From Candidatus Gastranaerophilales bacterium (GTDB taxonomy: Bacteria > Cyanobacteriota > Vampirovibrionia > Gastranaerophilales > Gastranaerophilaceae), in the NCBI GenBank assembly GCA_944323955.1, contig CALUUK010000005.1, positions 62,001 to 126,000 on the forward strand: a stretch of 64,000 bases of DNA, in the 5' to 3' direction. Both the position numbers and the translations under genes were made by a program. The notes beneath the pieces are model-generated. The model was given only the letters and a program-made list of their open reading frames with translations. It searched no databases and had not been told where the DNA came from. Shown here in pieces: positions 422 to 11,396 of the stretch (positions are counted from its first letter, which is position 1; each line of letters opens with the position of its first letter).

Positions 422-1133
422 AAAAACAATTTGTATAATCGGCGCGATGGAGTGTGAAATCGAAAAATTAAAACAAAAACTCCAAGGATTTAAAACCGCG
501 CATCATGGCAAAATGATTATTTATACGGGAAAACTGCACTCTCATAAGGTTATCTTAACTCAAAGCGGAGTGGGAAAGGTTAATGCTGCAATTACTCTGC
601 AGTATATTATAGATAAATATAATCCGGATATTGTTATAAATACAGGGATTGCCGGCGGGATTTCTTCCGAGCTCAGTGTAGCTGATATTGTTATAGGAAC
701 CGAACTTGTTCAGCATGATTTTGATGTATCCGCAATCGGATATGCGAAAGGTTATATGTGTACTGGTATTAATCCTGATAAACCTACTGTTTTTTGTTCT
801 GATGAAAGTTTAATAGCAAAATATGAAGAGGTAATTTCAGGTATGATTCCCGAAATTAAAATTCACAAAGGTATAATTGCCTCGGGTGATATTTTTGTAT
901 CGGATAATAATCGTAAAAAAGAGATTAAAAATATATTTAATGCCGCTGCGGTTGAAATGGAAGGTGCTGCAATTGCTCAAACCGCTTGTAAGAATGAAAT
1001 ACCGTTCATTGTTCTCAGAGCAATTTCGGATTTGGCAGATGACAATGCTGCGATTGAACATGAGTTTGTTGAAACACGAGCCGCGGAAATTTCTGCATTA
1101 TCCGTCGAGAAACTGTTGGAAAAGTTGGACTAA
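411..1133 (+). CDS. mtn: 5'-methylthioadenosine/S-adenosylhomocysteine nucleosidase
   Basis: This enzyme (MTAN/Pfs) hydrolyses S-adenosylhomocysteine and methylthioadenosine to adenine plus the ribosyl thio-compound. It makes the substrate of LuxS. The 240-residue protein starts MKNKKTICIIGAMECE, the usual N-terminus with the catalytic Glu of IGAMxxE. It continues with NTGIAGG, then VEMEGAAIAQ (nucleoside-binding Met-Glu) and LRAISDLAD with the catalytic Asp near the C-terminus. I chose the ATG at 411, inside the luxS 3' end, because the family N-terminus begins there. A longer reading frame from 279 only adds luxS shadow sequence. Confidence 0.96.
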   Translation: MKNKKTICIIGAMECEIEKLKQKLQGFKTAHHGKMIIYTGKLHSHKVILTQSGVGKVNAAITLQYIIDKYNPDIVINTGIAGGISSELSVADIVIGTELVQHDFDVSAIGYAKGYMCTGINPDKPTVFCSDESLIAKYEEVISGMIPEIKIHKGIIASGDIFVSDNNRKKEIKNIFNAAAVEMEGAAIAQTACKNEIPFIVLRAISDLADDNAAIEHEFVETRAAEISALSVEKLLEKLD

Positions 1134-1142
1134 TTATTTTGG

Positions 1143-1361
1143 CTAAAATTCAAACAGCTGTTTTTCATCAATTTCAAGAACTTCCGCAAGTTTGAACAAA
1201 AGCTCAATACTTATACCTCTTTTGGCTGTTTCGACTTTTGCCAGGTGTTCTCTTGATACGTTCAAAATTTCAGCAAGCGCATTTTGAGAAAGATACTTTG
1301 CTTTTCTGTATTTCGCTACATTTTTACCGAATTTAATTAATTTTTCACTGCTGTAAATCAT
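1143..1361 (-). CDS. XRE-family HTH transcriptional regulator
   Basis: A 72-residue Cro/C1-type helix-turn-helix protein. The segment from KFGKNVAKYRKAK through LAEILNVSREHLAKVE to LLFKLAEVLEID covers the five-helix XRE fold and nothing else, so it is a single-domain DNA-binding protein. The ATG at 1361 is preferred over a TTG five codons upstream. A perfect 7-bp inverted repeat (1367-1391) lies directly upstream and could be its own operator. It is tail-to-tail with mtn, 9 bp away. Its target is unknown; control of luxS-mtn is possible but nothing in the sequence shows it. Confidence 0.85.
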   Translation of the reverse strand: MIYSSEKLIKFGKNVAKYRKAKYLSQNALAEILNVSREHLAKVETAKRGISIELLFKLAEVLEIDEKQLFEF

Positions 1362-1366
1362 TCTAT

Positions 1367-1391
1367 AATTGTGCAATTTTCAGACACAATT
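1367..1391. promoter_or_regulatory. Inverted repeat upstream of XRE gene (candidate operator)
   Basis: AATTGTG and CACAATT form a perfect 7-bp inverted repeat with an 11-bp spacer ending 5 bp before the XRE start codon. This placement is typical of an autorepressor site. No binding evidence exists. Confidence 0.4.
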
Positions 1392-1427
1392 GTATGTAGT
1401 CTTAAAGTGCATATTTGAATATACTTT

Positions 1428-1649
1428 CTACTTATCTTTAAGTGAAAAGTTTATGCCGTTGTTGTCAAAGTATATATCCAGCTTCTTTTTTTTAAAGTAA
1501 TTCTTAATAAATTTTTCCGCTTTTTTATTTTGTTTTTCCAGCGAAAAATATTGACCCTGGCATGTGTCATGCATGTGAATATCCGCATTGAAGTTCTTCT
1601 TCAGGAGCGTTTTCAAATGCAGATATTCATCAAAATTTAAAATATACAT
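1428..1649 (-). CDS. Small conserved protein, RDAC-like
   Basis: A 73-residue protein with a central IHMHDTCQGQYFSLE stretch. This resembles the small 'RDAC family' proteins known from anaerobic bacteria, whose signature is a His/Arg-Asp-x-Cys-x-Gly-Gln-x-Phe segment; I recall the resemblance and could not check it. The rest is Lys-rich with no membrane segment or signal peptide. It begins 3 bp after the trxB stop on the same strand, so it is probably co-transcribed with trxB, and the conserved Cys would fit a thiol-related role. That functional link is inference only. Confidence 0.6.
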   Translation of the reverse strand: MYILNFDEYLHLKTLLKKNFNADIHMHDTCQGQYFSLEKQNKKAEKFIKNYFKKKKLDIYFDNNGINFSLKDK

Positions 1650-1652
1650 TTA

Positions 1653-2603
1653 TTATACTTGTACTTTTTCTTGTTCTTTTATACGTTCAATGTATTTAGC
1701 AGCACTGCAGGCAGCCACTGCACCATCTGCTGCTGCGGTAATAACCTGTCTTAAAGGAGTATTTCTTACATCACCTGCTGCATAAACGCCTTCCAGAGAG
1801 GTTTGCATATTGCTGTCTGTCTCAATAAATCCCTGCGTATTTTGCTGCAATTGACCTGCAAACATATCGGTATTCGGTTTAAACCCGATGTAGGGGAATA
1901 CTCCGTCAACCTTTAAAACGGATTGTTCATTATTTTGAGTGTTTTCTAAAATAATATTTTCGACCGAATTATTGCCTTGAATTTCAACAGGAACTGTATT
2001 TAATATAAATTCAATTTTTTCGTTATTTCGGGTGCGTTCCTGTACTATTTTGTCGGCTCTGAATTCATCGCGTCTGTGTATAACATATACTTTTTTTGCA
2101 AATTTTGTTAAATATGCGGCTTCTTCAAGTGCCGAATTACCGCCTCCTATAACGGCAACGGTTTTATCTTTATAGAATGCACCGTCGCAGATTGCGCAGT
2201 AACTTACGCCTCTGCCTTTAAATTCGTCTTCGCCTTTTATATTAAGTTTTTGAGCGGAAGCGCCGGTTGCTATAATTACGGAGTTTGCTTTAAATATTGT
2301 ATCATTTGTTTCAATTGTTTTTATTTCACCGTTGAGATTAACTTTTTCAATTTCAGTCATGGGAAATTTTTCGACACCGAATCTGTCAGCGTGTTCTTCA
2401 AATTTTTCCATAAGTTCAAATCCGCCGATTAAGGAAAATCCCGGATAATTTTCTATTTCAAGATAATTAGAGGGTTGTCCTCCAAACATATTTATATCAA
2501 TAATTGCCGTTTTAAGATTTCCCCTTGCGGCATAAATAGCTGCCGAAAATCCGGCAGGGCCTGATCCCAGAATGATTGTATCAAAGATTAATTCTTTTTT
2601 CAT
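1653..2603 (-). CDS. trxB: Thioredoxin-disulfide reductase
   Basis: FAD/NADPH flavoprotein that reduces thioredoxin. The 316-residue protein has the FAD motif GSGPAGFSAAIYAAR at the N-terminus, the redox CxxC as CAICDG (usually CATCDG) near residue 139, the NADPH motif GGGNSALEEA, and the C-terminal FAD segment GVYAAGDVRNTPLRQ. Length is normal for low-molecular-weight TrxB. A strong GAGAGGG ribosome site precedes the ATG. No thioredoxin gene is in the window; the small RDAC-like gene follows directly. Confidence 0.96.
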   Translation of the reverse strand: MKKELIFDTIILGSGPAGFSAAIYAARGNLKTAIIDINMFGGQPSNYLEIENYPGFSLIGGFELMEKFEEHADRFGVEKFPMTEIEKVNLNGEIKTIETNDTIFKANSVIIATGASAQKLNIKGEDEFKGRGVSYCAICDGAFYKDKTVAVIGGGNSALEEAAYLTKFAKKVYVIHRRDEFRADKIVQERTRNNEKIEFILNTVPVEIQGNNSVENIILENTQNNEQSVLKVDGVFPYIGFKPNTDMFAGQLQQNTQGFIETDSNMQTSLEGVYAAGDVRNTPLRQVITAAADGAVAACSAAKYIERIKEQEKVQV

Positions 2604-2623
2604 TTTCCCTCTCTCTTCAAATT

Positions 2624-3121
2624 TTACATTCCAAATATGCCCGAGATACCCGAGCCTGATATTTTAGTGCCTTTTACCTGATACTCGACGTAATCTTCTT
2701 TAATAAGTTTCCCGTTTTGGAATGTTTTTATACTTATTTTATCAACTCCTGTGAAATTGTCACCTTGTAAAGTTAAAATCGGAGTTTCAACAGATTCTTC
2801 ATCAGGATAGAAGGACTTTTTCTCGAATTTTACGGTTTGACCTTTTACGTCATCCACCGTTATTTGTGCTCTTGCACCCGATAACGGATTACTCAGAGAA
2901 ATGATGTCTCCGGTTCTTGAAAGAACCCAGATATCCATACTTTTTGAGTTGATAAGTTCTTTATCCGTAGATTTCGTACATACGGAAACTACTTTCCAGT
3001 TGCCGAAAAATTCTTTCGGCACTTTATCGGACATGCTGACGGAACCTTCTATTACCGCAGCATTTGAAGATAAAGAACACATAAAAAATAAACTTAATAA
3101 AACAAATAAAATCTTTTTCAT
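2624..3121 (-). CDS. Exported protein of unknown function
   Basis: A 165-residue protein with a clear Sec signal peptide (MKK, a hydrophobic run to about residue 18, then cleavage near SSNA-A). The mature part looks like a small beta-rich domain: EFFGNWKVVSVCTKSTDK, then alternating hydrophobic strands ending in a Gly/Ser-rich tail. No family is recognised. It has one Cys, not in a lipobox, so it is more likely periplasmic than a lipoprotein. It lies 20 bp upstream of trxB on the same strand and may share its transcript. Confidence 0.7.
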   Translation of the reverse strand: MKKILFVLLSLFFMCSLSSNAAVIEGSVSMSDKVPKEFFGNWKVVSVCTKSTDKELINSKSMDIWVLSRTGDIISLSNPLSGARAQITVDDVKGQTVKFEKKSFYPDEESVETPILTLQGDNFTGVDKISIKTFQNGKLIKEDYVEYQVKGTKISGSGISGIFGM

Positions 3122-3211
3122 ATTATCTATTTAATAATATTTTTCTAATAATCAAATCCGACTGGTCGGGTAATAGATTTTCTGTTTTTTCGTTTATCAA
3201 AATTTGTAATA

Positions 3212-4012
3212 TTATTTTATAAGTATTTTAGAAATGTTAATTTCTACTGGATTTTCAACATTATAAAAAAGTTTTGATGAATCGGCAAACTGTTTGGGAT
3301 TTGAACTTACATAAAACTTAGGTTCATAATCTTTAGAATTATTTTTAAGTCCTGATGTTTTAATATCATCCGCAATATACTGTGCAAAAAATTGTGCAGG
3401 GTCTATAAAGATATCTTTATCCGCAAACTTTGATAAAACATCCGTAAGATAAGGATAGTGTGTACAGCCGAGAATTATTTTTTGAGGTTTGTTTTTCATT
3501 ATTGCCTCTATGGCAATCTTTATATTCTCTATATTTTCAGGTTTATCCTGCAATTTATTTTCAACAATATATGCCCATTCGGGGCAAGCATATTCGATAA
3601 TTTTAACTTTTTTATTGTAGAAATTAATACTTTTTTGATATGCATGGGTTTTTATTGTAGCTGCTGTTGCGAAAACACCTACGACGGAATAATTTTTTTC
3701 TGCTATATATTTTGCTGCCGTTTGTGTAATCGGATATATTTTAAAAGGATATTTATCTTTAAATGTGTCATATACGGTTGCAGATGTGGTATTACAAGCC
3801 ATAACAACAGCTTTTACGTTTTGTTTTTCAAAAAAATCAAACAAATTTTTTGCAATACTAATAAGTTCTTCTTTTGATTTATTACCGTAGGGCAAATTTT
3901 TTGTATCACCGAAGTAGATATAATTTTCGTCAGGCAGTAAATTAATAAGTTTTGCAAAAACACTTAATCCGCCGACGCCTGAATCAAATACCCCTATAGG
4001 CTTATTTTCCAT
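3212..4012 (-). CDS. murI: Glutamate racemase
   Basis: Makes D-glutamate for peptidoglycan. The 266-residue protein shows IGVFDSGVGGLSVF with the first catalytic Asp, YFGDTKNLPYG, the first catalytic Cys in MACNTTSA, and the second Cys in LGCTHYPYL. Length is normal. Its start lies inside the 3' end of the amidase gene (11-bp overlap), so translation is probably coupled and the pair forms a cell-wall operon. Confidence 0.96.
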   Translation of the reverse strand: MENKPIGVFDSGVGGLSVFAKLINLLPDENYIYFGDTKNLPYGNKSKEELISIAKNLFDFFEKQNVKAVVMACNTTSATVYDTFKDKYPFKIYPITQTAAKYIAEKNYSVVGVFATAATIKTHAYQKSINFYNKKVKIIEYACPEWAYIVENKLQDKPENIENIKIAIEAIMKNKPQKIILGCTHYPYLTDVLSKFADKDIFIDPAQFFAQYIADDIKTSGLKNNSKDYEPKFYVSSNPKQFADSSKLFYNVENPVEINISKILIK

Positions 4013-6011
4013 TTTTTATTTGCTCCGTTAAATAATCATATATTCCGTCTGCAATTGCCTTTGCTGAAGCAAATTGTCTTGTATCCGACATTAACGATGT
4101 ACGTTCCTGCTCGTTTGATATGAACCCTAATTCCAGTAAAACAGCGGGTGCTTCTGTGTGATTTATAACATAAAACTTGGACTTGAACAAGCCTCTGTCT
4201 GCTGCTGAAACATTTGATATCATTTCTTTGTGTATTACTTTGGCTACTTCACATCCTCTTTCACTGTAATAGTGTGTTTCAATTCCGTTTACTTCGGATT
4301 TTACGCTGGAGTTAATATGTATACTTACAAAGATATCGGCATTATTATTATTTGCTATTTCGACTCTGTCCGCAAGAGAAAGGGTTTTATCGACGGCTCT
4401 TGTCATTATAACATTTTTAAATCCCATTTCTTTAAGTTCTTGTTTGACTTTCAGGGCAATAGAAAGGGTAAGATCTTTTTCAAGCACATTACCTCTCATT
4501 GCGCCGGTATCATTTCCGCCGTGGCCGGGGTCAAGAATTATAATTTTATTCTTAACTTTATTAAGTATTGCCTGTTGTTTTTTGCTTAACTTTGCGGGTT
4601 TTTGTTTTGTGAGCGAATTTTTATCTATTTTTATCGGTTTAATATCACCTTGCGGTCTGACTTTTTCTTCATCTTCATTGTCTTTTTTTATTATAGCCGT
4701 TGGTTTTGTTGTGAAGACAAATCTTAGCTGAGTAGCATTTAAAGATTCATAGCAATCGGTTAAAGTTTGGGCTTTTACCGGAAAAGAGAGTTTATATTTA
4801 TTTGCTCCGAGTTGTTTTGCGTTAAATCCGGTTTTATTTGCGGCTGATAATTCGTTAAAAGAAGTTGTATTAAAGTTTGCCAGATTATAAATTGTCATAT
4901 TTATAAATCCGTTTTCACGTTTAAGCGAATATACAATCGGATTTGTGAATGATATGTTTATCAGGTTTGTTGATGCATTAATTTTTTGTTCTTTAAAATA
5001 AGATAATTCGCTGAGCGTGTTTGTAAGATTTATGCCGGAAAGTTTGTTTGAGTTTGCAATAAGCAGAGTTTGTAAGTTTGATGAATAAACAGGCATGTAA
5101 AGTTCAGGAGTCGGAGTGTTGATTACTATTCTTGCTTTTGAAGGTTCAAACTGTCCTATTTTAACTGTTTCTGTTTCGGATAATTTTATTTCTTTATTTC
5201 TCAGTTCCTGTAAGACGATGGTATTTGGCAAATCAAATACTATTCTTGACGGTTCTGAAAGAATAAAAGATTTTTCTATGTTTATTACTCCGATTCCCGA
5301 TAAGAAAATATTCCCGTTTTTAGGAATAATATTTTCGAGGAAAAATCTTGATTTTAATTTTGCCTGTTTTTGTTCAATATTTGGGCGGACAAGTTCTTTA
5401 TCTTCATTTTTGAATGCCTGTTGAACCTGATTAAATATTTCATCAGAGACTTCTATTTTTGGTCTTTCTTCCGCTATAACAACAGCTTTATCATAATAAT
5501 CAACCGCAGATGTGCTTGTTTCACGGTAGACCTGAGTTAAGTATTTAGGAAGCGGTATTTCACTGTTGAGTTTAATAATAATATTATTTTTTATTTTAAG
5601 AACTTTAATCTGTGATGCATCATAATTTTTTGCTTCCCATATTACAATGCGGACAATATTCGGATTTACCGAGTTTTGGGCAATTCTTAGTTTTTCCAAT
5701 CTGCTGTGTTTCAGTTCATATGTTGAATTTGGAAAGGTTATTATTGCATTTTCTATGTCAAAGAATATTCTGTCAGGTTCGGAGAGAATTTTTTTAGTTA
5801 TTTTTATATCATCCGGATTTTCATTAGCGGAGGTTCCCAAGAAAATAATTGAGTCTGAATTATCAAAATTAATACTGTTAATTTTCAAAGGTTGGGCGGC
5901 GAAAGCTCTATAGCCCATGAAGAAAGTTGAAACATAGCTGTTTGTATTTGCAAACGGCATAGTGCTCAAACAAGAATATAAAACTAACAGTATTAAAAAC
6001 CGCTTTCCCAT
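4002..6011 (-). CDS. amiC: N-acetylmuramoyl-L-alanine amidase with AMIN domains
   Basis: Periplasmic enzyme that cuts the peptide stem from glycan and is normally needed to split daughter cells. The 669-residue protein starts with a hydrophobic export signal, followed by at least two AMIN-like repeats (about 42-150 and 225-320; each contains the SEPxRIxFD signature) that target the septum or pole. It ends in an Amidase_3 domain (about 490-660). Zinc ligands are visible in LDPGHGG, the Glu of LEKDL and SIHINSS, with the late catalytic Glu in LLELGF. The start codon has no Shine-Dalgarno sequence but a promoter ending 7 bp before it. Confidence 0.93.
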   Translation of the reverse strand: MGKRFLILLVLYSCLSTMPFANTNSYVSTFFMGYRAFAAQPLKINSINFDNSDSIIFLGTSANENPDDIKITKKILSEPDRIFFDIENAIITFPNSTYELKHSRLEKLRIAQNSVNPNIVRIVIWEAKNYDASQIKVLKIKNNIIIKLNSEIPLPKYLTQVYRETSTSAVDYYDKAVVIAEERPKIEVSDEIFNQVQQAFKNEDKELVRPNIEQKQAKLKSRFFLENIIPKNGNIFLSGIGVINIEKSFILSEPSRIVFDLPNTIVLQELRNKEIKLSETETVKIGQFEPSKARIVINTPTPELYMPVYSSNLQTLLIANSNKLSGINLTNTLSELSYFKEQKINASTNLINISFTNPIVYSLKRENGFINMTIYNLANFNTTSFNELSAANKTGFNAKQLGANKYKLSFPVKAQTLTDCYESLNATQLRFVFTTKPTAIIKKDNEDEEKVRPQGDIKPIKIDKNSLTKQKPAKLSKKQQAILNKVKNKIIILDPGHGGNDTGAMRGNVLEKDLTLSIALKVKQELKEMGFKNVIMTRAVDKTLSLADRVEIANNNNADIFVSIHINSSVKSEVNGIETHYYSERGCEVAKVIHKEMISNVSAADRGLFKSKFYVINHTEAPAVLLELGFISNEQERTSLMSDTRQFASAKAIADGIYDYLTEQIKNGK

Positions 6012-6018
6012 ATTAATA

Positions 6019-6046
6019 ATAATAAACTTAAATATATTAATATCAA
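6019..6046 (-). promoter_or_regulatory. Promoter of amiC-murI, leaderless geometry
   Basis: On the minus strand TTGATA, a 16-bp spacer and TATTAT are followed by 7 bp and the ATG of amiC, putting the first transcribed base at or next to the start codon. Confidence 0.5.
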
Positions 6047-6094
6047 ATTTTTAATTAAAATTCATGAAAGCAATCAAATATTAATCTGAGGAAT

Positions 6095-6123
6095 TAAACC
6101 CTCGTTATCTTGCGGGGTTTTTA
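6095..6123 (-). terminator. Terminator of array gene 6
   Basis: Minus-strand hairpin of AAACCCC-type arms around AAGATAA, directly after the stop codon. It belongs to the same hairpin family found after other array genes, though its stem has weaker pairing here. Confidence 0.6.
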
Positions 6124-6423
6124 TTAATATTGTAATGGTTCATCAAATGCTGCACTAACTATAAATCCAATTGAAATAAGAAAAATCGTATAGCAAAGCA
6201 TAAGAATGTTTAAAGACAAAATAATTCTTTGAGCAATCTTGTTTTTAAATATTCTTTTTAATATATCTAAAAGAATTGAAGCAATTAACGGGGGAATAAA
6301 ATAAATGTATACACTTAGTGCTACTTTAGATGGCAAATAATATGCCATGTCAACGCGAGTTTCATTGTAAATTATATAAAAAATCGTAATAATGAAAATG
6401 ATAACCGAGAAGTTTTTATACAT
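6124..6423 (-). CDS. Array paralog 6: small three-helix membrane protein
   Basis: A 99-residue protein, last of six tandem paralogs. Layout: MYKNFSVIIFII starts helix 1 (about 5-20); a variable, partly acidic loop (21-38) follows; helix 2 is about 39-58 with the conserved PPL; then a basic loop KRIFKNKIAQR; and helix 3 is about 68-90. The basic second loop and N-terminal Lys predict N-terminus inside and the variable loop outside. It shares the C-terminal EPLQY with paralogs 1 and 3. The ribosome site GGAGGAAATAGT is strong. Family unknown; no enzyme motif. Confidence 0.85.
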   Translation of the reverse strand: MYKNFSVIIFIITIFYIIYNETRVDMAYYLPSKVALSVYIYFIPPLIASILLDILKRIFKNKIAQRIILSLNILMLCYTIFLISIGFIVSAAFDEPLQY

Positions 6424-6444
6424 ACTATTTCCTCCAAAAAGAAG

Positions 6445-6471
6445 ATGTTATAATCTTTGGTATTATAACAT
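6445..6471 (-). promoter_or_regulatory. Promoter with perfect palindrome, array gene 6
   Basis: A perfect 10-bp inverted repeat, ATGTTATAAT / ATTATAACAT around a 7-bp spacer. The minus-strand arm contains an extended -10 box (TGTTATAAT) and the other arm falls just after the predicted transcription start. This is a good geometry for an operator. Confidence 0.6.
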
Positions 6472-6478
6472 GATAATA

Positions 6479-6502
6479 AAAACCCACTTTTTAGTTGGTT
6501 TA
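6479..6502 (-). terminator. Terminator of array gene 5
   Basis: AAACCAAC / GTGGGTTT hairpin on the minus strand followed by a T-run. The same sequence recurs after array gene 2 (7729-7751). Confidence 0.55.
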
Positions 6503-6511
6503 AGATACTTG

Positions 6512-6862
6512 TTAATTCTTTATATAATCTTTATATAGTTCATCTGTCCAATCTTGATATATTGCATCTTTTGGTATGGTATCACTTGTTAAATCCATTC
6601 CAAGATATAGTGAAAGAAGAAGAATTGTATATCCGAGTGCAAGAATGTTTAAAGCCAGAATAACTCTTTGAGCAATTTTGTTTTTAAATATTCTTTTTAA
6701 TATGTCCAAAACAACAGAACATATTAATGGTGGTACAAATTCTATATAGACATTTATTGTTTCTTGTGATGGTAATTTATATACAGAATCTCCATAAAGT
6801 TCAGAAAAAATAATGTAAATTATTACAAGAATAAATATGATAACTGAGAAATTCTTATACAT
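6512..6862 (-). CDS. Array paralog 5: small three-helix membrane protein, longest form
   Basis: A 116-residue paralog with the same plan: MYKNFSVIIFIL, outside loop with Gly-Asp-Ser, helix 2 with PPLICSVVLDILK, basic loop KNKIAQR, helix 3. It differs by an extended, charged C-terminal tail (TDELYKDYIKN). The 3' end of this tail is still recognisable as decayed DNA behind paralog 2, which shows that this form is ancestral to that copy. It has a GGAG ribosome site and its own promoter and terminator. Confidence 0.83.
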   Translation of the reverse strand: MYKNFSVIIFILVIIYIIFSELYGDSVYKLPSQETINVYIEFVPPLICSVVLDILKRIFKNKIAQRVILALNILALGYTILLLSLYLGMDLTSDTIPKDAIYQDWTDELYKDYIKN

Positions 6863-6900
6863 ATTATTTATCTCCAGAAGAAATTCTTATATTCTTAGGT

Positions 6901-6910
6901 ATTATAACAT
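6901..6910 (-). promoter_or_regulatory. Extended -10 promoter, array gene 5
   Basis: Minus-strand ATGTTATAAT (extended -10) about 40 bp before the ATG, directly downstream of the previous gene's terminator. This is the B-type leader, without the full palindrome. Confidence 0.5.
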
Positions 6911-6914
6911 ATTC

Positions 6915-6944
6915 AAAACCCCCGTTATCTTGCGGAGGTTTGTT
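6915..6944 (-). terminator. Terminator of array gene 4
   Basis: Minus-strand hairpin AAACCTCCG / CGGGGGTTT (one G-U pair) immediately after the stop codon of the preceding array gene. Confidence 0.7.
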
Positions 6945-6950
6945 TCTGTC

Positions 6951-7289
6951 TTACCATTCAGCAAATGCTGACGAAACCATTGAATAGATTGTAAACCAAA
7001 ATAAAGCTGAGATTAATACTAAGATATTTAGGGCCAAAATAATCTTTTTTACAATTTTATTTTTATATATTTTACTTAATATATCTAAAAACAAAGCAAT
7101 TATGAATGGTACATATAAATGATAATAAAAATGCCATTCTTCTATAGGTGGAAAAACTCGGTTTGGTTTATAATATAACCATTCAGTTGCATATGGTGGC
7201 CAATTTGGTTCTGAATTTTGTAATGTTGTGCAATATATTACTGTAAGTGTTGCAAGAATAAACAATATAACCGAAAAATTCTTATACAT
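6951..7289 (-). CDS. Array paralog 4: divergent small membrane protein
   Basis: A 112-residue paralog and the most divergent member. It keeps MYKNFSVILFIL, the middle PFIIALFLDILSKIYKNKI and helix 3. Its outside loop is expanded to about 40 residues and is rich in Trp, Pro and Tyr (NWPPYATEWLYYKPN). Variation is again concentrated in the loop between helices 1 and 2. It has its own promoter and terminator. Function unknown. Confidence 0.82.
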   Translation of the reverse strand: MYKNFSVILFILATLTVIYCTTLQNSEPNWPPYATEWLYYKPNRVFPPIEEWHFYYHLYVPFIIALFLDILSKIYKNKIVKKIILALNILVLISALFWFTIYSMVSSAFAEW

Positions 7290-7327
7290 ATTATTTATCT
7301 CCTAAAGATGTTCTTATGTTCTTTGGT

Positions 7328-7337
7328 ATTATAACAT
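7328..7337 (-). promoter_or_regulatory. Extended -10 promoter, array gene 4
   Basis: Minus-strand ATGTTATAAT upstream of a B-type leader with a TAGGAGATAAATA ribosome site. Confidence 0.5.
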
Positions 7338-7343
7338 ATTAAA

Positions 7344-7372
7344 ATCCCCCGCTGTTTTGCGAGGGGCTTTTA
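7344..7372 (-). terminator. Terminator of array gene 3
   Basis: Minus-strand CCCCTCGC / GCGGGGG hairpin with loop AAAACA, directly after the stop codon; nearly identical to the hairpin at 8142-8171. Confidence 0.7.
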
Positions 7373-7672
7373 TTAATATTGTAATGGTTCATTAAATACA
7401 GCACTAACTATAAATCCAATTGAAATAAGAAAAATCGTATAGCAAAGCATAAGAATATTCAAAATCAAAATAATTCTTTGAGCAATTTTGTTTTTAAATA
7501 TTCTTTTTGATATATCCAAAACAACAGAACATATTAATGGTGGTACAAAGTCCATATATGAGTTTATTGCTTCTATTGATGGTAGTTTGTAATTAGAATA
7601 AAGATAGTTTTCATCATATATGATATAGATAATAGTAATAATAAAGATAATAACCGAGAAGTTTTTATACAT
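7373..7672 (-). CDS. Array paralog 3: small three-helix membrane protein
   Basis: A 99-residue paralog very close to paralogs 1 and 6 at both ends (MYKNFSVIIFIITIIYIIY ... EPLQY), but with a different loop (YLYSNYKLPSIEAINSYMDF). Helix 2 (PPLICSVVLDIS) matches paralog 5 rather than 1 and 6, a mosaic pattern that suggests recombination or gene conversion between copies. The ribosome site is GGAGGAAATAGT. Function unknown. Confidence 0.85.
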   Translation of the reverse strand: MYKNFSVIIFIITIIYIIYDENYLYSNYKLPSIEAINSYMDFVPPLICSVVLDISKRIFKNKIAQRIILILNILMLCYTIFLISIGFIVSAVFNEPLQY

Positions 7673-7693
7673 ACTATTTCCTCCAAAAAGAAG

Positions 7694-7720
7694 ATGTTAT
7701 ATTCTTTGGTATTATAACGT
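7694..7720 (-). promoter_or_regulatory. Promoter with near-palindrome, array gene 3
   Basis: A-type leader; ATGTTATATT / ATTATAACGT inverted repeat with two mismatches, carrying the -10 box TATAAT on the minus strand. Confidence 0.5.
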
Positions 7721-7728
7721 GATAATAA

Positions 7729-7751
7729 GAACCCACTTTTTAGTTGGTTTA
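7729..7751 (-). terminator. Terminator of array gene 2
   Basis: Same AAACCAAC / GTGGGTT hairpin as at 6479-6502. It lies about 60 bp after the present stop codon, with decayed coding DNA between. Confidence 0.5.
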
Positions 7752-7760
7752 AGATACTTG

Positions 7761-7813
7761 TTAATTCTTTATATAATCTTCATATAATAATATATTTTTC
7801 TGTATATATCAAT
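7761..7813 (-). pseudogene. Decayed 3' tail of array paralog 2
   Basis: The minus-strand stretch ending GATTATATAAAGAATTAA matches the last codons of paralog 5 (which encode DYIKN and stop), including the sequence after the stop. Here it lies outside the open frame, so paralog 2 lost its C-terminal extension through an earlier stop. Confidence 0.6.
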
Positions 7814-8089
7814 TTAGTAATAAAATATTAATCCGAGTAAAATGAGAAAAATAGTATAACAAAGCATAAAAATATTCAAAATCAAAATAATTCTTTGAGT
7901 AATTTTATTTTTAAATATTTTTTTTAATATATCTAAAAAAATCGAAATTATTAACGGTAAAACAAAGTACATATAGACATTTATTGATATTTGAGATGGC
8001 AGATAATATGCTTTGTCGTAATAGTTTTCTGCGTATATTATATAAATAACTGTAATGACAAAAATAATGACAGAAAAATTCTTATACAT
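7814..8089 (-). CDS. Array paralog 2: C-terminally shortened membrane protein
   Basis: A 91-residue paralog with MYKNFSVIIFVI, loop ENYYDKAYYLPSQISI, helix 2 and basic loop KNKITQR, but ending shortly after helix 3 (LLGLIFYY). Compared with the 116-residue paralog 5 it lacks the charged tail, whose DNA relic lies just downstream. All three helices are intact, so it may still be functional. Confidence 0.8.
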   Translation of the reverse strand: MYKNFSVIIFVITVIYIIYAENYYDKAYYLPSQISINVYMYFVLPLIISIFLDILKKIFKNKITQRIILILNIFMLCYTIFLILLGLIFYY

Positions 8090-8127
8090 ATTATTTATCT
8101 CCTAAAGATGTTCTTATGTTCTTTGGT

Positions 8128-8137
8128 ATTATAACAT
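8128..8137 (-). promoter_or_regulatory. Extended -10 promoter, array gene 2
   Basis: Minus-strand ATGTTATAAT followed by a B-type leader; it starts right after the terminator of array gene 1. Confidence 0.5.
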
Positions 8138-8141
8138 ATTC

Positions 8142-8171
8142 AAAACCCCCGCTGTTTTGCGAGGGGTTTTT
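8142..8171 (-). terminator. Terminator of array gene 1
   Basis: Minus-strand CCCCTCGC / GCGGGGG hairpin with flanking A/T runs directly after the stop codon. Confidence 0.7.
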
Positions 8172-8172
8172 A

Positions 8173-8472
8173 TTAATATTGTAATGGTTCATCAAATGCT
8201 GCACTAACTATAAATTCGATTGAAATAAGAAAGAATGTATAGCAAAGTGCAAGAATATTTAAAGCCAAAATAATTCTTTGAGCAATCTTGTTTTTAAATA
8301 TTCTTTTTAATATATCTAAAAGAATAGAACCCAATAATGGGGGAATAAAATTATCATAAACATCTATTGCTATTTTGGATGGTAATTTGTAATAAGAATC
8401 AACAAAAATTTCAGAATAAATGATATAAATAACCGTAATAATAAAGATAATAACCGAGAAGTTTCTATACAT
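8173..8472 (-). CDS. Array paralog 1: small three-helix membrane protein
   Basis: A 99-residue paralog and the first in transcription order. It starts MYRNFSVIIFIITVIYIIY, has loop SEIFVDSYYKLPSKIAID, helix 2 with PPLLGSILLDILK, basic loop KNKIAQR and C-terminal EPLQY. Its ATG lies 1 bp after the stop codon of the 471-residue gene. Its promoter and leader sit inside the last codons of that gene, so it may be expressed both from its own promoter and by read-through. Confidence 0.85.
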   Translation of the reverse strand: MYRNFSVIIFIITVIYIIYSEIFVDSYYKLPSKIAIDVYDNFIPPLLGSILLDILKRIFKNKIAQRIILALNILALCYTFFLISIEFIVSAAFDEPLQY

Positions 8473-8473
8473 T

Positions 8474-9889
8474 CTATTTCCTCCAAAAAGAAGATGTTAT
8501 ATTCTTTGGTATTATAACATGATAAATAATAAAGTAAGGTATAATCTGCCCTCGTTCCTGTCTTATTCGTGCCGTCCTGACTAAATCACTTAGCTCATTT
8601 GGATTAAAATCATAGGTATCAGCAATAAGCAGGTCAAGCTCGCCGTTTTTGTTTATATGCATGTCTAAAATATCCGCGTTACCCAGTGCGTATCCAAAAT
8701 TTCTATCTTTGAACTCTAGGCTGGAGTTAATGTGTATATTGTTTTTTAATACTTTCTCATTTTTATTTATTTTTTCTTTAAAAACAGAATGATTTCCGAG
8801 CACTTCGGCAAGTCTTTTTGAAGAATCAGAGTCTGCTTCAATATATATACCTTTTGTTGTTAAAAGTTTATCTTCTCCGATTTGTTCTGATATTTTCTCC
8901 CTTAAATAATCCTGCAGGTCACTATCCACTTGAAGATAATTATCAAAAATTGTATGCTGCCTTGCATAATCGGTGTTCATATAAAATCTTGCTTTAGACA
9001 TATGCAAGTTCTCTGCTGCCTCTGGACCATAATTTTTAGACGCAGTTTCTTTTATTTTTGCATTATGAATATAATCAATTGCGATATCACTACGAATGCT
9101 ATGTCTTTGGGGTTTTCGAAGGCGTCTTTTTTCATCCATATTAACCTTTTTCTTTAGAGCATTAATTTCATTTCCATATAAAGTCAAATCATATTTTTTT
9201 TGAAGAGGCATATCGGCTAAAGTACCTTGAGGAAAAAATAATTTATCGGGGTCTGAAATAGCCGGAATTGATGAAGCAGAGGGATTAGACGGGTTATATT
9301 CATAGAGTTTTTGTACGGGATGAAGGGCAAAATCCATACGATTTTGAAACTGCTGAAAATATTTTTGATAATATTCATCATCAGAGCCATATAGAACATC
9401 AGCTCTGTTTTGCATTTTATCGAAACGGTTTAAATCTTCATTAATAGCAGATTGTTTTTTCTTTTTCATTAAAGATAAATCTTGTTCGATAGATTGATGA
9501 GAGACTGCAGGCTTAACAAAATTTGAATTAATTTTTGTAAGGTTTGACGGTTGTTTATTTAAAGAATTAATCATTTTTTGATTTTGCAGCTGCTGTTGTT
9601 TTAATAACTTTCTTTGATTTTCAAGAGATTTAATTTCATTTTCTTTCTGCTGAATTTTATATTTAGTAAGGGCATAATCTTGTTTAGCCTGATTAATTTG
9701 TTCTTTATAATCAGTTGTTACATTATATTGTTCAACAGACGGCTCGTAAAACGGAATATCTGAAAACTGCGGGTATTTTTGTTTTGATTTTGAAGATGAA
9801 TCAGGCTCTTTGTAGTAAACATCTTCTCTAATACCTCCTTGTAAAACAAAATTGTCTTGATTTTGATGCTGATTTGTTTTTTTGTGCAT
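8474..9889 (-). CDS. Unknown 471-residue coiled-coil protein preceding the array
   Basis: The start at 9889 follows AAGGA; a frame 13 codons longer lacks a good ribosome site. The N-terminal third is Gln/Lys-rich, with a predicted coiled coil (KYKIQQKENEIKSLENQRKL, about 75-115). A disordered middle follows, then a more compact C-terminal domain (about 290-460) containing GNADILDMHINKNGELDLLIADTY-like sequence and RQERGQIIPYF. No signal peptide, no recognised family. The last roughly 17 codons (from YHVIIPKN to FWRK and the stop) coincide with the array promoter/leader, and the same codons reappear before array gene 3. Confidence 0.75.
   Translation of the reverse strand: MHKKTNQHQNQDNFVLQGGIREDVYYKEPDSSSKSKQKYPQFSDIPFYEPSVEQYNVTTDYKEQINQAKQDYALTKYKIQQKENEIKSLENQRKLLKQQQLQNQKMINSLNKQPSNLTKINSNFVKPAVSHQSIEQDLSLMKKKKQSAINEDLNRFDKMQNRADVLYGSDDEYYQKYFQQFQNRMDFALHPVQKLYEYNPSNPSASSIPAISDPDKLFFPQGTLADMPLQKKYDLTLYGNEINALKKKVNMDEKRRLRKPQRHSIRSDIAIDYIHNAKIKETASKNYGPEAAENLHMSKARFYMNTDYARQHTIFDNYLQVDSDLQDYLREKISEQIGEDKLLTTKGIYIEADSDSSKRLAEVLGNHSVFKEKINKNEKVLKNNIHINSSLEFKDRNFGYALGNADILDMHINKNGELDLLIADTYDFNPNELSDLVRTARIRQERGQIIPYFIIYHVIIPKNITSSFWRK
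8494..8520 (-). promoter_or_regulatory. Promoter with near-palindrome, array gene 1, inside a coding 3' end
   Basis: ATGTTATATT / ATTATAACAT inverted repeat (one mismatch) with the minus-strand extended -10 TGTTATAAT. The same bases are codons for HVIIPKN of the upstream gene. Confidence 0.5.
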
Positions 9890-10188
9890 GATACATTCCT
9901 TTCTTTGCAGTAGTAAAAGACAGAACATTTATTCTGCCCAAAGAGACATACGGCTCTTCTTATTAATAATTTTATCCGTAATTTCGTATTAAATTTACCT
10001 GTTATTGTTTTTATATTTACAATAAAATGTTTAATAAACTCTAATACAGAAGCATATTTACATTATAACATACTTTCCTGATTATGCAAGTGTGTGTAAA
10101 ATATATAACAACATATTGTACAAAAAGACATAATAAAGCCCCTAAAGCAATATTTGCATTTAGGGGTTTAAAAGAATTTTGTTTATTT
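9890..10188. other. Gene-free stretch between two minus-strand genes
   Basis: About 300 bp with the EF-hand gene's terminator at its right end (10134-10170). The rest is AT-rich, presumably holding the promoter of the 471-residue protein; I see no clear -35/-10 pair and no RNA gene. Confidence 0.5.
10134..10170 (-). terminator. Terminator of EF-hand gene
   Basis: Perfect 8-bp stem CCCCTAAA / TTTAGGGG with a 12-nt loop, 19 bp past the stop codon. Confidence 0.75.
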
Positions 10189-10752
10189 TTATGAGTTTGA
10201 ATTTCCGTTTATAGTAGGACGAACCGAGTCCAAAACGCTTGATGTATCATCTTCTACGCCGTCATTGTAATATAAACTGGTGTTTGAGGCTTTATATGAT
10301 TTGTATTTCTTTTCTACTTCGTATTGATTACAATCCATACTGAATTTTGTTATTTCATCGCTGGTTACTCTGCCGTCACCGTTTGCATCAATCTGGTTAA
10401 AATAAGTTAAAACTGTTGATAATAAAGAAGAATCTCCGCTGCCTGAAGCACATAAAGATTGAATTTCACTATAAGTTAAACCTTGTGATTGCATTGTATT
10501 CATAAGGTTTTGCAAGTCCGCTCCCGTAATCTCACCGTCGCCGTCTTTATCTACAGATGCGAAATTACTTGTTAAATATTGAACAAAGCTGTAATTACTG
10601 CCAAGATTTAGCAATTGAGAACTTGTAAGATTTGATAAATCGTCCAGAGAAATACCCTTTCCCGAAGAACTGTTGCTCATCAATGTCGAATAGGTGGAAG
10701 TTAATCCTGACATCGCACTTGCTAAAAGCGCCTGACCGTTTAATATACTCAT
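10189..10752 (-). CDS. EF-hand calcium-binding protein
   Basis: A 187-residue protein with two canonical EF-hand loops, DKDGDGEITGAD (about 68-79) and DANGDGRVTSDE (about 122-133), each flanked by helix-forming sequence. The N-terminus (MSILNGQALLASAMSGL) has no signal peptide, and the Ser/Asn-rich tail looks disordered. Ca2+ binding is expected from the loops; partner and location are unknown. It is a single-gene unit with an AAGGAG ribosome site and its own terminator. Confidence 0.85.
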   Translation of the reverse strand: MSILNGQALLASAMSGLTSTYSTLMSNSSSGKGISLDDLSNLTSSQLLNLGSNYSFVQYLTSNFASVDKDGDGEITGADLQNLMNTMQSQGLTYSEIQSLCASGSGDSSLLSTVLTYFNQIDANGDGRVTSDEITKFSMDCNQYEVEKKYKSYKASNTSLYYNDGVEDDTSSVLDSVRPTINGNSNS

Positions 10753-10925: not shown

Positions 10926-11396
10926 CTATTTTTTGTTTTTGTTATAAATTCTTTCCTGGTCGCTTGAAAGTGTTGCTTTGAATTGATTTTCGTAGCATTC
11001 GCAAATTTTCTTTTTTGTTTTTTCAAGTTCTTTTATAACATTTTTTTGTTTTCTTATCTCGGAAGCATTTGCGCAGCATTCTTCAAGCTCTTTTAGTTTT
11101 GCACATTCGCATTCAAGTTTTTCTTCCAAACTTAAAACTTCCTGTTCGTATTTTTCCTGTATTTTTTTAGCATTACAGATTTGGGCATTGCTTAAATTCA
11201 TTCCGCTGAAAACACTGTTCATATTCTTTTCTGTACATAAAAAAGAATCACAATCCGATTCGGTATATGTTTGAGGACATGGTTTTTCGCATTTTGGTAC
11301 ACTCTGCGGTTTTTTGCAGCAATTATCATGTGTCGCAAATGCAGACATAGAACATAAGCAGAATAGTGATAAAATTAAAAGACTGATTTTTTTCAT
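10926..11396 (-). CDS. Cys-rich periplasmic Spy/CpxP-like protein
   Basis: A 156-residue protein with a signal peptide (MKKISLLILSLFCLCSMSAFA). A Cys-rich segment follows (CC, C, C, C, C up to about residue 55), then a helical region beginning MNLSNAQICNAKKIQEKYEQEV and ending ATLSSDQERIYNK. The paired 'LS-xx-Q' entries around long charged helices resemble the Spy/CpxP chaperone fold. The roughly 15 cysteines are unusual for that family and suggest disulfides or metal binding. The name is a fold-level guess. Confidence 0.65.
   Translation of the reverse strand: MKKISLLILSLFCLCSMSAFATHDNCCKKPQSVPKCEKPCPQTYTESDCDSFLCTEKNMNSVFSGMNLSNAQICNAKKIQEKYEQEVLSLEEKLECECAKLKELEECCANASEIRKQKNVIKELEKTKKKICECYENQFKATLSSDQERIYNKNKK

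Follow-up and report, generated by a model that had tools for sequence, protein, structure and literature searches.

In the window analyzed here, a stretch of 64,000 nucleotides from contig CALUUK010000005.1 of a Candidatus Gastranaerophilales bacterium (class Vampirovibrionia, gut relatives of cyanobacteria), six paralogous genes for small membrane proteins of 91-116 residues lie in tandem on the minus strand at positions 6124-8472. We consider it likely (probability about 0.8) that the six genes constitute a homogeneous polyimmunity locus against a polymorphic toxin that would act in the periplasm. The putative toxin is encoded on the same strand at 8474-9928 (484 residues as listed, with a true start that may be the second methionine; identified from its open reading frame (ORF) and its homologues), and its gene stops 1 bp ahead of gene 6 of the array. 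The preliminary description of this DNA had reported the six tandem genes for three-helix membrane proteins, which ORFs and alignment confirmed, and had overlooked the toxin gene. Hereafter the two gene families are referred to by their predicted functions, as toxin and immunity genes.

Since a profile of the immunity proteins finds its family only within the genus, the linkage was tested on the neighbors of toxin genes. Among de-duplicated loci, 29 of the 30 toxin-domain genes had, within 350 bp downstream and on either strand, a gene whose product has two or more transmembrane (TM) helices, versus 20/130 in the background (Fisher p = 1e-17). A stricter test that counted only the same strand gave 20/30 versus 12/130 and missed a toxin subclade (L074-L084), in which the likely immunity gene (106-137 residues, 2-4 TM helices) is convergent, not co-directional. 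Many of the toxin-adjacent membrane proteins resemble those of the window in their length, their three helices and an IP..I, KN..K, NI..IY pattern, and the profile-profile comparison of the window proteins with those of the relatives gave an E-value of 4.8e-6. Further tandem arrays were found, with five copies at locus L052, three at L054 and two each at L055 and L061. The copy number of the immunity family is six here, six by matches in genome G140 (five in tandem) and between one and four in other members of the genus; it varies between species, where the preliminary description had named variation between strains as support.

Full modules are accompanied by detached toxin C-termini at L045 (6058-6369) and L082 (5978-6355), and many short fragments occur elsewhere. 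The toxin domain, named here the D-x-Y-D-F-N domain after its motif, is joined to different N-termini (HPRD, GYTR, coiled-coil and MuF), and N-terminal motifs are shared by different C-terminal domains (GH108, phage lysozyme, M23 and D-x-Y-D-F-N). Because the linkage, the tandem arrays and the detached toxin C-termini are hallmarks of such systems (Zhang et al. 2012, PMC3482391), we assign the window locus to polymorphic toxin-immunity systems of the homogeneous polyimmunity type. Bacteriocin immunity, one of the functions proposed earlier, was essentially right in that related membrane genes stand directly behind polymorphic-toxin genes in many genomes; no support was found for the phage receptor and surface sensing proposed with it.

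The D-x-Y-D-F-N domain makes up the C-terminal ~210 residues of the ORF at 8474-9928 and was delimited by alignment conservation and an AlphaFold2 model to 8474-9100 on the minus strand (~208 residues). Homologues of the toxin C-terminus were found in 21/58 relatives and at 43 GTDB loci, and a profile of the domain detected it in 103/192 genomes and 26/45 genera of the order. The GTDB contigs carrying toxin relatives all belong to Candidatus Gastranaerophilales where they are named. Among the invariant residues are K, Q, S, N, D and D-x-Y-x-F-N. The AlphaFold2 model of 8474-9154 is a mixed alpha/beta fold with a predicted local distance difference test score (pLDDT) of 91.5 and a predicted template modeling score of 0.86, and it had no significant fold match in PDB or BFVD. 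The best Foldseek match in PDB, 9jdi (the C-terminal domain of BtpeA, a type VI secretion system effector), was rejected as not significant (E 0.1, probability 0.16, TM-score 0.26). DUF6402 matched two toxin members weakly (best E 0.009), and a search for this family in the relatives gave no confirmation. The clustering of the invariant polar residues, which resembles an active site, suggests that the domain is an enzyme. As a low-confidence guess, its substrate could be a membrane-linked cell-wall precursor.

The immunity genes were defined by their ORFs and a family alignment, and for gene 6 also by an AlphaFold2 model. Genes 1 (6124-6423), 4 (7373-7672) and 6 (8173-8472) encode proteins of 99 residues, the last being presumed cognate to the resident toxin. 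Gene 2 (6512-6862; 116 residues) has a different and longer C-terminus, gene 3 (6951-7289; 112 residues) is the most diverged copy, its loop between helices 1 and 2 (loop 1) being enlarged by a 16-residue insertion, and gene 5 (7814-8089; 91 residues) is shortened and has lost its C-terminus. The proteins are 43-80% identical to that of gene 1 and share 26 invariant alignment columns. No further copies of the family exist in the 1.96-Mb genome, and a scan of genome contigs with the array alignment gave no matches. The signatures MYKNFSVIIF, PPL and KNKIAQR, which had been ascribed to all copies, are each exact in four. They read MYRNFSVIIF in gene 6 and MYKNFSVILF in gene 3 for the N-terminus, VLPL in gene 5 and VPFI in gene 3 for the second motif, and KNKITQR in gene 5 and KNKIVKK in gene 3 for the basic loop.

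The AlphaFold2 model of an array protein contains three helices (residues 5-22, 33-58 and 62-93; mean pLDDT 82). Because the positive-inside rule assigns the Lys/Arg-rich segment that joins helices 2 and 3 to the cytoplasmic side, loop 1 and the C-terminus would face outside; the earlier placement of loop 1 agrees with this charge pattern and with the three modeled helices. The array proteins tested had no Pfam or NCBIfam match over the cut-off. A housekeeping family was rejected for the array on this ground, and the earlier statement that no known family is recognized holds at this level. The toxin domain and the immunity family both appear to be undescribed.

The leaders of the six genes connect the array to the toxin gene. 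The last 52 nucleotides of the toxin gene (8474-8525), with TATAAT at 8511-8516 and a GGAGG ribosome-binding site, are at the same time the leader of gene 6. They recur at 98% (51/52 nucleotides in each case) as toxin 3'-end relics before gene 1 (6424-6475; TATAAT at 6462-6467) and gene 4 (7673-7724; TATAAT at 7711-7716). A 24-nucleotide core of the toxin 3' end recurs at 96% before genes 2, 3 and 5, where TATAAT lies at 6901-6906, 7328-7333 and 8128-8133, respectively, all on the minus strand. TATAAT is thus present in all six leaders, and five of them spell TGTTATAAT. Across the relatives, the same string occurs in 26/29 distinct toxin 3' ends with a V-[IV]-I-P site, where the codon usage of the same genes predicts ~21% for GTT-ATA.

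It had been stated that each copy carries its own promoter and terminator. For the promoter, the six TATAAT motifs agree with this statement and a generic promoter scan, which was not above chance, does not. For the terminator, four terminator-like sites were found versus 0.7 expected; two of these are stem-loops on the coding (minus) strand, after gene 6 (8146-8165) and gene 4 (7346-7365), and the rest are weaker variants recognized by eye. The gaps between the genes are 82-141 bp long. This size, together with the -10 motifs and the terminator-like sites, may point to separate transcripts rather than one polycistronic message. Most simply, the array would have arisen when a segment beginning within the toxin 3' end was duplicated or recombined, a process that would preserve the signals of each immunity copy.

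The variability of the proteins was compared among five copies, the outlier gene 3 with its loop insertion being excluded. Loop 1 had a mean pairwise residue difference of 0.50, compared with 0.16 for TM1, 0.30 for both TM2 and TM3, and 0.04 for the basic loop (permutation p = 2e-4). The loop had been described as differing in every copy, and it is indeed the most variable part of the core, though the C-terminal tail is about as variable (0.56). The pooled Nei-Gojobori ratio of nonsynonymous to synonymous substitution (dN/dS) was ~0.58 for loop 1, 0.04 for TM1 and 1.3 for the short C-terminal tail, the only region above 1. The proposed selection for variety is therefore borne out as far as the loop varies more than the rest of the core, and positive selection limited to the loop is not. 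Because the loop ratio is ~0.6 and only the tail exceeds 1, relaxed constraint is indistinguishable from diversifying selection. The identity of copy pairs in 30-nucleotide blocks is mosaic, genes 2 and 4 agreeing at 29/30 positions in one block, and this mosaic suggests gene conversion among the copies.

The compartment was approached through the N-terminal part of the toxin. The motif DKMQNRADVLY at 9389-9421 (minus strand) places the window toxin among the carriers of the D/EKxxxRAxxLY pattern, which is common to other toxins including M23 and lysozyme types. At locus L130 (G019:C2:181000-191000), four neighboring genes at 849-8094 have nearly the same N-terminus, consisting of W-D-E-S-E-H-P-R-D-x-x-G-K-F-T and a RADLLY motif, with one of the four partial, and their C-termini are two GH108 and two phage lysozyme domains. 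They are interleaved with convergent genes for small exported proteins, one or two of which are LprI-like, and we regard the region as a compact polymorphic cluster of predicted cell-wall toxins. At L129 (389-1090; genome G002), the N-terminus of a neighboring D-x-Y-D-F-N toxin, with GYTRxDGTEVSGYTR and RAELLYPTM, is joined to peptidase M23; genes for LprI-like and signal-peptide proteins are convergent to the M23 gene. Altogether, genes similar to the lysozyme inhibitor LprI were found beside hydrolase-bearing modules twice above the Pfam cut-off and once below it.

Since the N-terminal module carries cell-wall hydrolases beside exported inhibitors, it probably delivers to the periplasm, and a membrane-bound immunity to the D-x-Y-D-F-N toxin would fit such delivery. 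Membrane immunities against periplasmic toxins have been shown experimentally (PMC5277000, PMC5821083). No signal peptide was recognized in the window toxin, and the type VI secretion sheath protein VipB/TssC (PF05943) was absent from its own genome and six relatives, while the E. coli control was positive. A phage-derived origin or delivery of the toxin module seems likely. The homologue at L082 is a Phage_Mu_F fusion next to the major head gene, and no toxin relative was found in IMG/VR viral contigs or phage records. At L064, L065 and L070, the toxin gene and one or two genes for proteins with six to seven TM helices lie between the terminase large subunit and the portal or head-tail adaptor in prophage-like regions.

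We infer toxicity, neutralization, a periplasmic target, a delivery route and a cognate pairing, and picture them as follows. The toxin C-terminal domain would enter the periplasm of kin cells or competitors and attack a target in the envelope; our best guess is that it acts as an enzyme on a cell-wall precursor bound to the membrane or on the inner membrane. The immunity protein would be embedded in the inner membrane, exposing loop 1 and the C-terminus to the periplasm, and would block the toxin via those parts. Gene 6 would serve against the resident toxin; genes 1-5 would encode immunities that have diverged or been displaced and are retained against related toxins. The array could have grown as a unit including the last ~50 nucleotides of the toxin gene was duplicated in tandem or recombined; since this unit carries the -10 motif and the ribosome-binding site, every copy could stay expressed.

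A wider proposal, to which we give somewhat less than an even chance, is that the locus belongs to an undescribed and probably phage-derived system of the whole order. In such a system, related N-terminal modules would deliver envelope toxins (lysozymes, M23 and the new-fold D-x-Y-D-F-N domain) to the periplasm, and an immunity promoter embedded in the toxin 3' end would keep displaced immunity genes expressed, so that they build up into a heritable record of earlier encounters with toxins. Polyimmunity loci of polymorphic toxins are a known kind; what is new lies in the toxin domain, the family of immunity proteins, the promoter motif embedded in the toxin gene and the lineage of the host. 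If the assignment is right, the inventory of polymorphic toxins would gain a toxin domain and a family of membrane immunities, both new, and uncultured gut Vampirovibrionia would have an antagonism system present in over half of the genomes sampled from the order. The embedded motif would suggest a simple route by which recombination at the toxin 3' end yields expressed, independent immunity genes. The locus would also make it possible to test by what means small membrane proteins counter periplasmic toxins and whether arrays of immunity genes guard against toxins of non-kin.

Several facts weigh against the polyimmunity assignment. The toxin domain is without a recognized family, motif or fold in profile, PDB and BFVD searches, and the window toxin has neither the MuF domain nor the HPRD motif. 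The dN/dS of loop 1 is below 1, so that positive selection on it is not demonstrated. The immunity profile has hits above E 1e-6 only within the genus, while the toxin is order-wide; the immunity proteins outside the genus are therefore either unrelated or too diverged. In the linkage test, the TM helices were counted by a simple hydropathy rule, and the 26/29 statistic was obtained without correction for the relatedness of the toxin sequences.

The loop ratio and the mosaic identity would also be expected if only the toxin-adjacent gene were a working immunity and the other five were neutral tandem duplicates, drifting and undergoing gene conversion with a weakly constrained loop; the shortening of gene 5 points the same way. 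We regard this as unlikely, since all six frames are intact, TM1 (dN/dS 0.04) and the basic segment are under strong purifying selection, the promoter motif and the ribosome-binding site are retained in all copies, and other species (L052, L054) also have arrays of intact copies. It is a highly improbable reading that the toxin family is instead a structural or injected phage protein with no antibacterial role, the membrane proteins then serving superinfection exclusion. The prophage-like modules at L064 and L070 and the MuF fusion at L082 speak for it, but most copies are chromosomal without phage genes nearby, relatives are missing from IMG/VR and phage records, the N-terminal module bears lysozymes and M23 beside lysozyme-inhibitor-like genes, and detached C-terminal cassettes are typical of toxins.

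Two further possibilities concern the action of the toxin. One of them, a pore-former of the inner membrane whose assembly is blocked by the immunity protein as for pore-forming colicins, departs from the polyimmunity assignment in this respect only. Integral-membrane immunity is usual for pore-formers (PMC5821083). The mixed alpha/beta model, the active-site-like invariant residues and a hydrophobic stretch seen by a simple scan in isolated members only make a pore-former rather unlikely. The other is a lipid II hydrolase of the colicin M kind. Colicin M has the motif DXYDX5HR (PMC5821083), and the D-x-Y-D part is common to the window toxin; its membrane immunities in some lineages, BmiA (three TM helices) and PmiA (four), are, like the window proteins, small and poorly conserved in sequence (PMC5821083, PMC5277000). 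However, HR occurs at the required place in 0/26 members, PF14859 matched none of the 26, and colicin M does not appear in the 50 highest-ranking PDB fold matches. The window toxin also lacks a recognized TonB-type bacteriocin layout. Membership in the colicin M family was thus rejected on motif, profile and fold, and a toxin of this kind is improbable.

Under the preferred polyimmunity assignment, the locus can be compared with known systems. Like the homogeneous polyimmunity loci (PMC3482391), it consists of at least four paralogous immunity genes that follow one another in the same orientation, with only toxin 3'-end relics and no complete toxin gene among them, and its copy number differs between relatives. 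It differs from them in that its immunities are integral-membrane proteins, whereas most known ones are cytoplasmic, in that the array sits directly behind its toxin, and in that each copy has a leader with a -10 motif instead of membership in one tight operon; its lineage, Vampirovibrionia, is not covered by the four phyla that the same source lists for extended loci. The MuF polymorphic toxins of temperate phages (Jamet et al. 2017, PMC5576092) share the C-terminal toxin domain, the small downstream gene and, at L082, Phage_Mu_F next to head genes. In contrast, the window toxin and most of its relatives are without a MuF domain, the toxin domain is absent from Pfam and most copies are chromosomal. 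The orphan toxin/immunity modules of contact-dependent inhibition (CDI) and Rhs systems (PMC3150448) likewise place detached toxin C-termini and immunity genes downstream of an intact toxin. The window has no recognized CdiA or Rhs architecture, and mostly immunity genes follow its toxin, with only toxin 3'-end relics between them.

The toxin gene and the six immunity genes form an island of 4.2 kb (6012-10188) that here separates an EF-hand gene (10189-10752) from amiC (4002-6011). The island is missing from this site in the relatives: at 22/29 of their loci, 85-183 bp separate amiC from the EF-hand gene upstream of it, and at five others of the 29 the EF-hand gene was not found in the DNA examined. 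At L098 and L105, the gap between the two genes is ~960 bp and contains no toxin and no long ORF on the amiC strand; the extra DNA is possibly another or a decayed insertion. The EF-hand protein and a 156-residue protein with a signal-peptide-like N-terminus (10926-11396) are conserved neighbors of amiC in the genus, next to the genes for ribosomal proteins L7/L12 and L10.

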